From: Panorpa germanica
Taxonomy: Eukaryota > Arthropoda > Insecta > Mecoptera > Panorpidae
Assembly: GCA_963678705.1 (NCBI GenBank)
Contig: OY783216.1
Span: 10,788,001 to 10,852,000 of the forward strand
Length of the DNA: 64,000 nucleotides
Direction: 5' to 3'
The position numbers and the translations under genes are program-made. Shown in pieces: positions 30,559 through 64,000 of the stretch (its first letter is position 1; each line of letters starts with the position of its first letter). Below the pieces are notes generated by a model. That model searched no databases, had not been told where the DNA came from, and saw only the letters and a list, made by a program, of their open reading frames with translations.

Positions 30559-30622
30559 ATGGGCAAAAAGAATTCCAAACTAAAGCAAGACACGATAGAC
30601 AGGCTGACGACTGATACCTACT
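30559..30622 (+). CDS. Frq: Frequenin / NCS-1, first coding exon (partial)
   Basis: Frequenin (neuronal calcium sensor 1) is a small EF-hand calcium sensor at membranes of nerve terminals, where it modulates transmitter release, channels and phosphatidylinositol 4-kinase. This exon encodes its first 21 residues, [10 protein letters not shown]...RLTTDTY, plus the first base of codon 22. Fly Frequenin starts [20 protein letters not shown], so there is one difference: Asn5 as in vertebrate NCS-1 (MGKSNSKLK) instead of Ser5. Gly2 followed by Ser6-Lys7 forms an N-myristoylation signal. The start has A at -3 and an upstream in-frame stop. The exon ends at T|GTAAGT, phase 1; the next codon would begin with T, matching the Phe that follows in the family. 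The EF hands lie in later exons not found here. I am highly confident despite the short length. Confidence 0.95.
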
Positions 30623-30628
30623 GTAAGT

Positions 30629-31440
30629 AATCTAATTGTTACTTGGTAGTCTTAGTAAATCTTAAGTTAAGGTAGCCTCCCTAAAATAAATTAACCTCCT
30701 CTAATGTGACAGTAAAATAAAAGCAGTCATTTAATAATTTAAATAACAGATAGTTCCTTCAGCGCGCATTTGTTGTAATAGAATTGTCCATGTCTCTGTT
30801 ATTACTTCCTCCCCAAAAAAGCACTCACAGAATCGCAGATATACAACCATTCTCTTATCCCAGTGGGGTAATTCACAACCGACCCTACTCCCACTACCCC
30901 TCCTATTTCTGCAGGATGTGTCTGTAAGTTCCTGCAGGCTTTTTGACCTGCTTTGTACGCATCCTATGTTACACAATAACAGCGTCCTATTTGCGGTCCT
31001 GCTGATGTTTAGGCCTAGTGCAGATCCTCGTAGGGGTCCCTATATACCCCTTCCGTATCACAGTTTCTATTGTTTCCATTTTGGAAAGTTTTACCCCACA
31101 CACAACACGACACAACGCACTAATTTATGGGATAACATTACGCTAACGCCATCTATTAAATCGGGTTGGAAGCTGAGATCAGAAGTTTCGTTTATTTGGA
31201 ATACAATTGTCTTAATTATGTGGTACAGATGTGCCGAGAATAAATTATTAGCTCCTATTGATTGTCTCCAATGTCTTATTTTCTTTATTGTATGTTATTT
31301 TCTTACCTTGATAAATCATGGCATTACTTGGTACTTATTTATGTTATATAGAATTTTATATTTAATTCAGTTATCAGTTAATATATTACGTCATCGCAAG
31401 GTCTCCACGAAACTTAAGGTAAGGTCAAAACGATAAAAAA
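30629..31440. other. No second gene recognised
   Basis: The early intron is less AT-rich (30830-31110) and holds an unusually long open frame, 172 codons at 30918-31436 (plus). It overlaps an 81-codon frame on the other strand. Neither shows a recognisable domain. The long frame is rich in aromatic and Leu/Ile residues in its second half. Confidence 0.4.
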
Positions 31441-32087
31441 AAGAATATTTTTGATAATGTTTTTTGACGACACAATTAATATACAATTATTTTTATAATT
31501 ACTACATGATAAAATAACATTTGAAGAAAACTTTGTGAAATTTTCATAAATAAATATCAAGAAATGAGGCGTTGACAGCGAATCTCCGCAGATGTCACAA
31601 AAAAATTTAATATTGCGGTGCCAGTCATAAATCATCACTGGATTTTCTGAAATCGTAAATCCAAAATGATTTCATTAGGTGAATTAGATTCTGCTGGTAA
31701 CGCTGTCGTTTTTTTTCTATTTTTATTGATTTTTCAGTATTTTACAGCACTTAAAAGTCAAAATACCGATTTTTCATGAAAAAAATTCGAAACATTGTTG
31801 TTTTAAAATACGTTAAAATTAAAAAAAAAATCAACAGCGCTACCTCGGCATTTATGTAAAGAAAGAGTGTGCAAAGAGATAAGATTTTGAGATAGAGATG
31901 GAATCGACACTGAAAAAGCTAAGTGTGAGAAAACGCGTTTAAGAGTTTCAAAGTAAAACGAAACCATACCATAGAGGTGAAAACTTAAAATTCTATATCT
32001 CCGACAGTTTTACTCCAATCGACTTCAAATTTTTACACAATAAAGTTAATATACATTAATGTACATAATATAAATAAATAAAAGAAA
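31441..32087 (-). repeat. Repeat family D, copy 2
   Basis: Matches copy 1 (20913-21556) in reverse over its full length. The frame MMIYDWHRN ... SSKNIIKNI at 31454-31638 aligns codon by codon with the copy 1 frame apart from a 6-bp length difference, so the reading frame is kept. Confidence 0.72.
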
Positions 32088-32206
32088 AGTTAGTACCTTA
32101 CAACGCCGCAGTTGACATGTTGACAAAAACAGCTATTACAATATGTGTTGTATTTTCGTTTATACTGAAGTAATCAAAGAACATAATCAAAAAAAACGAA
32201 GAGATG

Positions 32207-32532
32207 TAGGGATGGCGATCTGAGATCGATTAATCGAATCGATTTTTTGAGTTGATTTTTTTTTATTAATCAAAAATCACTCTTCACATATTATTTAATT
32301 ATAAGAAAGACTTGTGAATTTTTTTTACAAATTTAAAAAAAATAAAATCGATAAAAGATCGTTTTTTTTTTGGGTTAGTGTCTTTTTTTATATAAAAACT
32401 CAAAAAGAATCGAAAAATTTATTTTTAAGAAGTCGCATTTGTACACTTCGATTTTTTTCTAAATCAATTATTTAGATTTCGATTCATATCGATTAAAAAA
32501 TCGATCTTTTTTAAAAAGAATCGCCATCCCTT
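32207..32532 (+). mobile_element. ATCGAT-rich MITE family B, copy 3 (most complete)
   Basis: Starts TAGGGATGGCGAT and ends ATCGCCATCCCT, with paired AATCGATT-rich subterminal arms, 326 bp in all. This is the reference copy for the family. No target duplication is evident. Confidence 0.75.
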
Positions 32533-61271: not shown

Positions 61272-61908
61272 AATAAAAAAATCTTATTTTCGATATTTTT
61301 TGAACGACACAGTTAATATATAATTATTTCTATAATTACTACATGATAAAATAACATTTGAAGAATACTTTGTAAAATTTTCAAAAATAATATCAAGAAA
61401 TGTCAATAAAAGAAAAAGTCTCATTGCCACTCATAACTCATCACTGGATTTTCTGAAACCGAAAAACCAAAATGGTTTCATTAGTTGATAAGTTTCTACA
61501 GGTAACCCTGTCGATTTTTTTTTAATTATTGATTTTTCAATTTTTTACAGCACGTAGAAATCATAGTACAGATTTTTCATGAAAAAAAATCAAAAACTTT
61601 GTTATTTTAAAAAACGTTAAAATTAATATAAAAAAAAACTCGACAGCGTTACCTCGGCATTTATATAAAGAAAGAGTATACAAAATTTCAAAAGGATCGG
61701 TCAAGTAGATTTTGAGCTAGAGAAGGCACCAATTCTGACAAAACTAAGTGTGAGAAAAACGAGTTTAAAAGTTTCAAAGAAAGAAACCAGACCAGAGAGT
61801 TGAAGACTTAAAACTCTAAATCTGCGACAGTTTTACTCCAATCGACTTCAAATTTTCACACAGTAAACTTAATATGTTGTATATTATTATAAATAAATAA
61901 AAATTCTA
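61272..61908 (-). repeat. Repeat family D, copy 3
   Basis: Colinear with copies 1 and 2 in minus orientation, with the central GGTAACSCTGTCGA inverted arms. The shared open frame of copies 1 and 2 is lost here by a stop soon after MSYEW and a short deletion. Confidence 0.72.
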
Positions 61909-63127
61909 CTTGAAATCATAATAAAATTGGTTACAGAAATTTATTTTAACTAAATTTATTTAGGCAAAAGGTAACTTTCCTTGTGTATATTAAGCCTCAG
62001 ATGGACGTAATTACATATACCTACCAAAATAAAAATATATATTACGTTTTTTAAATATAAATAAATATTTAAGAAAAGTTTGAAGTTTGATGTTTTTCTT
62101 CTTTGAATTGTATTTTGAAATTCAAATAACAAAAGCTTTTATATTATTGCTTGATTTCAATTAAAGACAAAGCTCTGAAAGCAAATTTTAAATTGTATTT
62201 AAATTAAATTAAAATTTTAATTAAATTAAATTTAAATTTAAATAGCCTCAATAAATTCTAAAATATAAAAAAATAAAAAACTTGATATGTTGTGCATTAA
62301 CATAAGTAAATTTAAAAAAATGAGTTGCTCTTCTACTGTACACTATACATATTCTAGTCTTGCAAATAATAATTACACGTTTCATTCATTCTAAAGTTTA
62401 GAACAAGGTCCCGAATGAACCCCATTGAACTATTCTTGACCCGATTTGAACTCAAAGCCAATTTCCGGAACTAATCATGCATATGAGTATCTGGAACAGA
62501 CAGTTGAAAATGTGTTCCTGACTCTCCCTGTTAACGGTTACTGATATTTACATGTCAAATGTATACGGGTCCATATAATTAGATATTGTTGAAATCCGAT
62601 GAGTTCAACACTAAGCTCAATTAATTTAAATGTTCGTAATTACATGCACTATCATAAACACAAATCTAATATCGGAAACATAACAACAACATGTTAATAT
62701 ATTTATGCATGTGTTACAGTGTCCATTATTCCATGTTAATTGTTATCCAAATGCTCTCAAATTGTCTGGGTGTTTAGTATATGTATGCATTTATTGTATT
62801 GTATATACCTTGTTGAACTTACAATCTTTTCACATTTTTTTTTCCTAAATTATGTGTTCCTCGTCCTTTTCTGCTCCCTTTATCTCTTCTTCTTACTTCC
62901 ACCATTCAGCTTCATTCTTTCTCCCTTAGTAACAGTATATAAATACTTCTCTCGCTTTCCACCTGCTCCTCAGTTCCTTCAGCTGTTATTCCTCCTCCCC
63001 ACATATCCTTCATGCTCTTATTCTTCCCCTCTTCAATATTTGCCTCCTTTTTCTTCGTTTCCTAGTATAGGCTAGCTTAGTATATACCTTCTTTGCTATA
63101 TAATAGCTTAGCTTAGCTTTGCCCATG
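61909..63127. other. No gene seen; pyrimidine-rich tract
   Basis: 62835-63065 is strongly C/T-rich on the plus strand. The 111-codon frame across it (62740-63075) is a composition effect. An AATTTAAA-type AT palindrome lies near 62190-62245, and TAGCT tandems at 63095-63118. Confidence 0.45.
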
Positions 63128-63960
63128 AAGGGTTTAAACAAAAATTCACTTTTTGAATAACCGGTTTTAGAATTTAAGATTTCCAAAAAAAATCCGATTT
63201 TAGCCGGTTTTGAATTTTTGTCAATAAAAATAAAATAAGGAAAAATATTTTATTTCATTTATATAAAATAACAAATATCGAAATCAATATCAAAGTCAAA
63301 GTCAAAATATAAAAAAAAAATAAGAATTACATATTAATTACACCAAATTTTTACAATATTTTTACTAATTTTAATTTCTCATAAGAAAATGAGATTTTAA
63401 GAAACATAAAATATCCATTGTGGCTAACGGTGGCTGGTAAGTCTTAATAAGTCTTGTTCTTATTTTGGAGACAATATTGCCTGAAATTGAAAATACTCGT
63501 TCACTAGCTACTGAGCTTGGTTTTATAATTTTCAGGGCATTAAATAACAAATCTAAGTTTTTTGTTCTTTTATTCGTTGCATCAATTAATGAAAATTCAG
63601 CTATCAGTGTTTATGGATTTATTAGTTTTTCTTGGCGTCTTCAAGATACTTATGAATTGATTCTTCCGTGACTTTCTTTATAAAAATAAATTACTCTGAT
63701 GAGTAGTTTCTTCGATTTTATCTTCATCCACATAAGAATTTGAAAATAATCTAGACAACTGATAAAATGTGTTTGTTGCCCGTTTTATAGAATGAATTTG
63801 CTATTAATTCTATAAAACGGACAGTAAACAATCAAATAAGTTTAAAATTAATTTTTACATGATATACATACATCGTATGAATTCTATAAACCGGTTTTCT
63901 TAATTTAAAAATCGTGTTTCGGATATGCTAAATTTACTTTAGCTTTATTATATGCCCTGT
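63128..63960 (-). mobile_element. hAT transposon fragment, transposase C-terminus
   Basis: Minus strand: ATNKRTKNLDLLFNALKIIK followed by PSSV then ASERVFSISGNIVSKIRTRL is the hAT dimerisation domain, ending near 63385 (LATMDILCFLKSHFL). Upstream, TEESIHKYLEDAKKN is in another frame. Further upstream coding is lost or beyond recognition, so the transposase is truncated. CCGGTTTT words occur near both edges (63161-63212 and 63890-63900), which may be subterminal repeats. The pattern KRTxNLxxLxxA is shared with the hAT fossil at 10845-11945. Confidence 0.87.
63776..63831. repeat. Short palindrome in the hAT fragment
   Basis: GCCCGTTTTATAGAAT and ATTCTATAAAACGGAC pair over about 15 bp around a short AT loop. 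Could be a remnant terminal structure. Confidence 0.6.
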
Positions 63961-63966
63961 GTCTTA

Positions 63967-64000
63967 GGCCTGTCGCACTATGCAAGCGTATTTAAGCGAC
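63967..64000 (+). mobile_element. Harbinger-like MITE, family HB copy 5 (cut by window end)
   Basis: GGCCTGTCGCACTATGCAAG and GCGTATTTAAGCGAC follow a TTA at 63964-63966, the start of a further family member. Confidence 0.82.

Follow-up and report, generated by a model that had tools for sequence, protein, structure and literature searches.

A Frequenin (NCS-1) gene in Panorpa germanica: seven predicted coding exons, with a 25-nt second exon between two long introns

A 64,000-nucleotide stretch of the Panorpa germanica genome (here called the window; C13:10788001-10852000, on the 16,451,125-bp C13) carries a 64-nt coding exon that almost certainly belongs to the single Frequenin (NCS-1) gene found in this genome, a gene of seven coding exons that spans 153,402 bp from ATG to stop and encodes an EF-hand calcium sensor of 187 residues. 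Such a gene, ordinary and well conserved, is unsurprising here; what this analysis adds to a preliminary description of the window is the 76-kb length of the first coding intron and the 25-nt size of the second exon. The genome searched consists of 464,208,970 bp in 249 contigs, and in the published assembly, reported at 464.2 Mb with 20 autosomes plus X, chromosome 13 measures 16.45 Mb and the mitogenome 16.39 kb (PMC11464959).

First coding exon and gene model

Coding exon 1 occupies window positions 30559 to 30622 on the + strand (C13:10818559-10818622; 64 nt) and consists of 21 codons and one further base; it runs from ATG to TACT and is directly followed by GTAAGT, so that both the N-terminal exon and the clean T|GTAAGT donor given in the preliminary description are borne out. 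All 21 residues are identical to those of Drosophila Frequenin 2 (Frq2; PDB 4by4; E value of 3.9e-8 in a search of all PDB chains), and the second of six PDB matches to this peptide is NCS-1 (E = 0.1). The region taken alone reaches an E value of 9.2e-4 in the whole-genome protein search, and the identification is backed by the collinear gene downstream. The closest in-frame stop 5′ of the exon is the codon at 30538. The N-terminal myristoylation signal is composed of Met-Gly and a Ser at position 6, and the sequence MGKKNS at the N terminus conforms to it; the modification itself is predicted.

Six of the 38 matches listed in the whole-genome protein search belong to the Frequenin gene on C13, exon 1 included, and the further pieces are located at 10939802, 10958859, 10966009, 10966838, and 10971787 on the + strand. 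None of the 38 falls between position 30622 and the end of the window, in agreement with the preliminary description, which had seen no more Frequenin exons there and had put the first intron at over 33 kb; the first coding intron measures 76,324 bp and runs past the window. The complete model adds to exon 1 the microexon 2 (C13:10894947-10894971, 25 nt), exon 3 (C13:10939801-10939849, 49 nt), exon 4 (C13:10958880-10958969, 90 nt), exon 5 (C13:10966021-10966099, 79 nt), exon 6 (C13:10966845-10966933, 89 nt), and exon 7 (C13:10971793-10971960, 168 nt), all on the + strand. The exons follow one another in order and in frame and form a coding sequence of 564 nt with the stop codon. The six introns (76,324, 44,829, 19,030, 7,051, 745, and 4,859 bp) all have GT-AG boundaries, with GTAAGT as the donor in five of them and GTGAGA in one; the exon sequences, like their arrangement and these dinucleotides, are read directly from the genome.

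The spliced product aligns with Frq2 (4by4) over residues 1 to 187 with only six differences (181/187 identical, E = 9e-124), from which it would be expected to act as a synaptic calcium sensor. The best PDB match after Frq2 is human-type NCS-1 (E = 6.1e-87), and the PDB sequences matching at an E value of 1e-80 or better are all Frequenin/NCS-1 (4/4); the product is thus nearer to this group than to neurocalcin, recoverin, KChIP, or GCAP. Pfam EF-hand_1 is found in three stretches of the product, and its first EF region contains DCPNG; the first EF hand of Frequenin/NCS-1 proteins is degenerate and carries Cys-Pro.

Several points weigh against the gene model as drawn here. Transcription, actual splicing, and constitutive use of the microexon are predicted from genomic sequence. 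Exon 3 has the lowest-scoring acceptor of the six (4.8 by a hand-made matrix that ranks splice sites only among the introns of this gene), and the microexon was predicted from the protein, which makes its identification a directed search, although the genome-wide control is clean. In addition, an acceptor-like sequence, ttattttctttttcag, is present at window positions 30275 to 30290, 268 bases 5′ of the start codon; ending at 30290, it would possibly permit a non-coding exon upstream, and coding intron 1 is therefore perhaps not the first intron of the transcript. Core-promoter motifs looked for by eye around exon 1 gave nothing firm, and a bacterial promoter scan found one candidate where 2.1 were expected. 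Scans of the window for tRNAs and, at gathering scores, for Rfam families returned none. Shortly 3′ of exon 1 lies a stop-free stretch of 229 codons (30747-31433), for which there is no Pfam match.

The 25-nt second exon

Residues 25 to 30 are left uncovered by the whole-genome protein search. Because exon 1 ends with one base of codon 22 and the next exon found starts with one base of codon 30, the missing exon must be 25 nt long. A back-translated pattern for it, bounded by AG on the 5′ side and GT on the 3′ side, matches the surrounding 194 kb once, as TTACCGAGAAAGAAATACGACAATG at C13:10894947-10894971 on the + strand, which is preceded by CAG and followed by GTAAGT; together with the final T of exon 1, it is translated into F-TEKEIRQ plus two bases of the codon for W. 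The preliminary description had foretold a next exon beginning with TTC/TTT ACN GAR, and the genomic sequence indeed provides TT-ACC-GAG 76,324 bp further on, on the same chromosome and strand. The microexon is unique: without flanks, its degenerate pattern matches once in 464 Mb, between exons 1 and 3, while the reverse strand and the reversed pattern, searched as controls over the same 464 Mb, gave no match. Base composition leads one to expect 4.8e-7 matches in the 121-kb interval, or 1.3e-9 with the splice dinucleotides. Nine stretches between exons 1 and 3 share the spacing of AG, TT/TC, 21 nt, TG, and GT/GC; one of them scores 34, and the other eight score -8 or lower.

The sequence 5′ of the microexon is TTCTAATTTGTTCTTATTTTGTTTCAG, and a CTAAT branch-point-like motif, TTCTAATTTG, is found before the acceptor. 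By the same matrix the acceptor scores 8.6, second of the six (range, 4.8 to 11.9), and the donor scores 9.3, the top value, common to five of six. If the microexon were skipped, the product would end at a stop after 26 residues. The microexon is most probably included constitutively, since 25 nt is not divisible by three, its donor is GTAAGT, its acceptor is good, a CTAAT motif is at hand, and skipping would give a dead product.

It is also conceivable that the microexon is a neuron-switched cassette, in which case the skipped form would be a frame-shifted mRNA destined for decay and splicing would turn Frequenin on and off. The stop after 26 residues would suit such a switch. In Drosophila, eMIC microexons are described as weak at both splice sites, with UGC motifs close to the acceptor and with flanking introns that are short; also described for them are a branch point of the CUAAY type and a strong donor upstream (PMC8797185). 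The Panorpa exon has the last two features (the CTAAT motif and the exon 1 donor GTAAGT, which scores 9.3) but lacks the other three: its sites are not weak, no TGC occurs in the 42 nt upstream of it, and it is flanked by introns of 76 and 45 kb. For Caenorhabditis elegans, small exons are reported to lean more on PRP-40 the longer their flanking introns are (PMC8378409), which would favor a regulated exon; by analogy, the Frequenin microexon may depend on a PRP-40-like factor. On balance a switched cassette appears unlikely, and constitutive inclusion is preferred. Our search of the open-licence PMC literature found no paper on Frequenin together with a microexon.

Two further readings question the gene itself rather than the use of its second exon. 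A 64-nt exon within repeat-rich DNA could be a captured fragment, so that exon 1 would be a stray copy or pseudogene piece and the working Frequenin would be located elsewhere; however, one Frequenin-grade exon set was found in the genome, it is collinear with exon 1 on the same strand, and the microexon pattern occurs nowhere else. A complete Frequenin gene at another site, which the preliminary description had named, in combination with a lack of transcription across exon 1, as an observation against its Frequenin reading, is not among the 38 genome matches listed, nor is any second Frequenin; instead, the collinear exons complete this gene, and we regard a stray exon 1 as extremely improbable. 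Hardly more credible is an artefactual origin of the very long intron 1. Repeats such as those it contains can cause misjoins, but the 194 kb is free of any N, the exons on either side of the intron lie on one chromosome in the correct order, and the published assembly is reported to combine HiFi and Hi-C data with a contig N50 of 5.0 Mb and a quality value of 59.9 (PMC11464959); the fly genes frq1 and frq2 are likewise reported to have two large introns (PMC2837045).

With exon 1 as part of an intact Frequenin gene, this neuronal calcium sensor stays in frame only through a 25-nt exon isolated amid repeat-rich introns of 76 and 45 kb, which makes the gene a natural test of how very short exons are recognized between long introns. 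Automatic annotation could readily lose the 64-nt exon 1, which holds the myristoyl signal, and the 25-nt exon 2, and would then produce a truncated gene model.

Mobile DNA and the splicing of the long introns

The window contains the first 33,378 bp (30623-64000, + strand, from the donor GTAAGT on) of coding intron 1, which as a whole extends over C13:10818623-10894946. Within the 194 kb, 33,541 of 76,324 bp of intron 1 (43.9%) and 25,285 of 44,829 bp of intron 2 (56.4%) resemble other parts of the same region, as do 10,609 of the 30,558 bp upstream of exon 1 (34.7%), by a measure that misses repeats without a second copy in the 194 kb. The earlier picture of an intron filled with nested mobile DNA is thus broadly right, and the nesting that was tested is real. 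At 38998-44594 lies an element with identical 347-bp long terminal repeats (LTRs; 38998-39344 and 44248-44594), TG...CA ends, and a 4-bp ATAT target duplication. The longest stop-free stretch listed inside it has 137 codons; its + strand is C-rich (GC skew of -0.36 to -0.41 over 40 to 44 kb), and a tandem array of ~65-bp units is observed at 43327-43744. The LTR gave 42 matches listed in the genome (40 of 109 candidates scored), 32 of which form 16 pairs spaced 5,051 to 5,384 bp apart, the window's own included; the rest are two extra pieces of one pair and eight unpaired copies. These 16 pairs at 5.05 to 5.38 kb suggest a family that has been moving recently, with a non-coding member at 38998-44594.

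The LTR element sits within a high-copy repeat (38848-44748). When the flanks 38848-38997 and 44599-44748 are joined, 40 of the 52 genome matches listed cross the junction, and 17 of these 40 begin no later than query base 10 and reach base 300 (40 of 385 candidates scored); since the joined flanks match uninterrupted copies elsewhere, this is one nested insertion. Another high-copy family is represented at 31598-32052, where the other full copies among the 41 matches listed are 81 to 87% identical (40 of 1838 candidates scored). This stretch and the LTR were selected for having further copies inside the window.

Of ten open frames in the window compared with Pfam, eight have no match at 0.1 and one matches DUF4645 at 0.035; the tenth is an RNase H-like fragment at 57488-57814 on the + strand, a putative retroelement remnant (PF00075, E = 1e-4, 22.9 bits, below the cut-off of 25.8). 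Among another ten frames downstream, which all lie within introns 1 and 2, one in intron 1 clearly matches RNase H (L022:557-880), and intron 2 has clear matches to DUF1759, Peptidase_A17, DUF1758, and DUF5641, the others being weak or absent. Three intron 2 frames on the - strand (L029:2571-4625, L029:1580-2086, and L027:3716-5422, with 685, 169, and 569 codons) are presumably Pao/Bel-type retroelement frames, in line with the Pfam name of Peptidase_A17.

Fly introns longer than 40 kb are said to show recursive splicing commonly (PMC6110457), and in large introns, ratchet sites are reported to exceed their complements 21.7-fold in the fly, 8.0-fold in the beetle, and 4.0-fold in the bee (PMC2773006, Table 2). 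In Panorpa, the sites are very few: at scores of 10, 12, 14, and 16, the sense/antisense counts are 4/6, 3/1, 1/1, and 1/0 in intron 1 and 4/3, 1/1, 1/1, and 0/0 in intron 2. Regular-expression scans gave 0/0 in strict form and, in relaxed form, 1/1 or 1/2 for intron 1 and 0/0 for intron 2. The top sense AG|GT ratchet-like sites, C13:10866420 (L023; score of 16.0, at ~63% of intron 1) and C13:10916331 (L028; score of 15.3, at ~48% of intron 2), are not clearly above the antisense control, whose top scores are 15.6 and 14.3. The Frequenin gene offers a natural test of whether insects with repeat-rich long introns splice recursively.

Stems predicted to form between inverted repeats, at -60 kcal/mol or better, were also counted. 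Intron 1 has 28 of them under strict blastn settings (18.3 per 50 kb), 26 under middle settings (17.0), and 18 under the first settings (11.8); the corresponding numbers for intron 2 are 14 (15.6), 15 (16.7), and 5 (5.6). The first and last 50 kb of intron 1, which overlap, hold 13 to 18 stems, and five shuffles of the intron gave none. Published values per 50 kb are 9.39 for human, 1.36 for chicken, 4.00 for beetle, 1.43 for mosquito, 0.53 for bee, and 0.03 for fruit fly (Shepard et al. 2009; PMC2773006). Introns 1 and 2 of Panorpa (5.6 to 18.3) are nearer the vertebrate than most of the insect values given there, in a comparison of one gene, counted by a similar but not identical method, with samples of 7 to 100 introns (PMC2773006). 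The DNA upstream of exon 1 has a similar density (8.2 to 13.1) and intron 3 gave 0 in one test, so the stems are not specific to introns and reflect the local repeat load. That stems aid splicing is a hypothesis of the same study (PMC2773006). In a reading that extends it to this gene, Panorpa Frequenin would have shifted to a vertebrate-like intron regime: mobile DNA would have swelled introns 1 and 2 around a frame-critical microexon, inverted copies of it would fold the pre-mRNA so that distant splice sites meet, where large insect introns usually rely on recursive splicing, and failure of the microexon would serve as an off switch for Frequenin; we consider this very unlikely. In the open-licence PMC literature, we found no paper on frequenin, first introns, and insects.

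As a separate observation, C249 is the mitochondrial contig (16,386 bp), and 19 of 20 COX1 matches listed lie outside it (on C16, C1, C3, C5, C21, and others), 17 of them above the Pfam cut-off; they are nuclear mitochondrial fragments, two sets of which, with equal scores, lie ~104 kb apart on C5. The mitochondrial gene order is I-Q-M ahead of a gene that is probably ND2; ditrysian Lepidoptera have M-I-Q, so this order argues against a lepidopteran genome.

Relatives and counterparts in other animals

Three non-Frequenin matches listed in the whole-genome protein search reach the N-terminal part of the protein (query start of 31 or lower). The neurocalcin gene on C20 is 52% identical over residues 1 to 65, and its first coding exon is unbroken across residues 1 to 63; the gene on C21, which we take from its sequence to be KChIP-like, is 39% identical over residues 8 to 68 and is likewise unbroken over the N-terminal part; the match on C2 (23%, E = 2.9) is at chance level. 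After Frequenin itself, the C20 and C21 genes give the next best matches in the genome. In both relatives, the ones whose N-terminal exon can be seen, the coding sequence is thus not divided at residues 22 and 30.

Drosophila frq2, with which Panorpa Frequenin shares 181 of 187 residues, is one of two tandem frq genes that are reported to lie 11.6 kb apart, whereas one gene was found in Panorpa; the "two large introns" ascribed to frq1 and frq2 resemble, by their description, the 76- and 45-kb introns 1 and 2 of Panorpa (PMC2837045). A constitutive microexon whose length is not a multiple of three is described for MPC1, where it has 4 nt (PMC9929638); the Panorpa exon, of another gene and another length, would break the frame in the same way, and its constitutive use is predicted. 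A counterpart in exon structure is human NCS1, which is reported to span 64.7 kb by published coordinates and which, like Panorpa Frequenin, has seven coding exons (exons 1 to 7), the first of them ending inside a codon after ~22 residues; it differs from the Panorpa model in that an eighth exon follows untranslated and intron 1 harbors an alternative first exon (PMC5004852). Because human NCS1 also breaks its first coding exon after ~22 residues and codes in exons 1 to 7, the comparison points to a gene structure of old origin and away from one newly arisen in scorpionflies.

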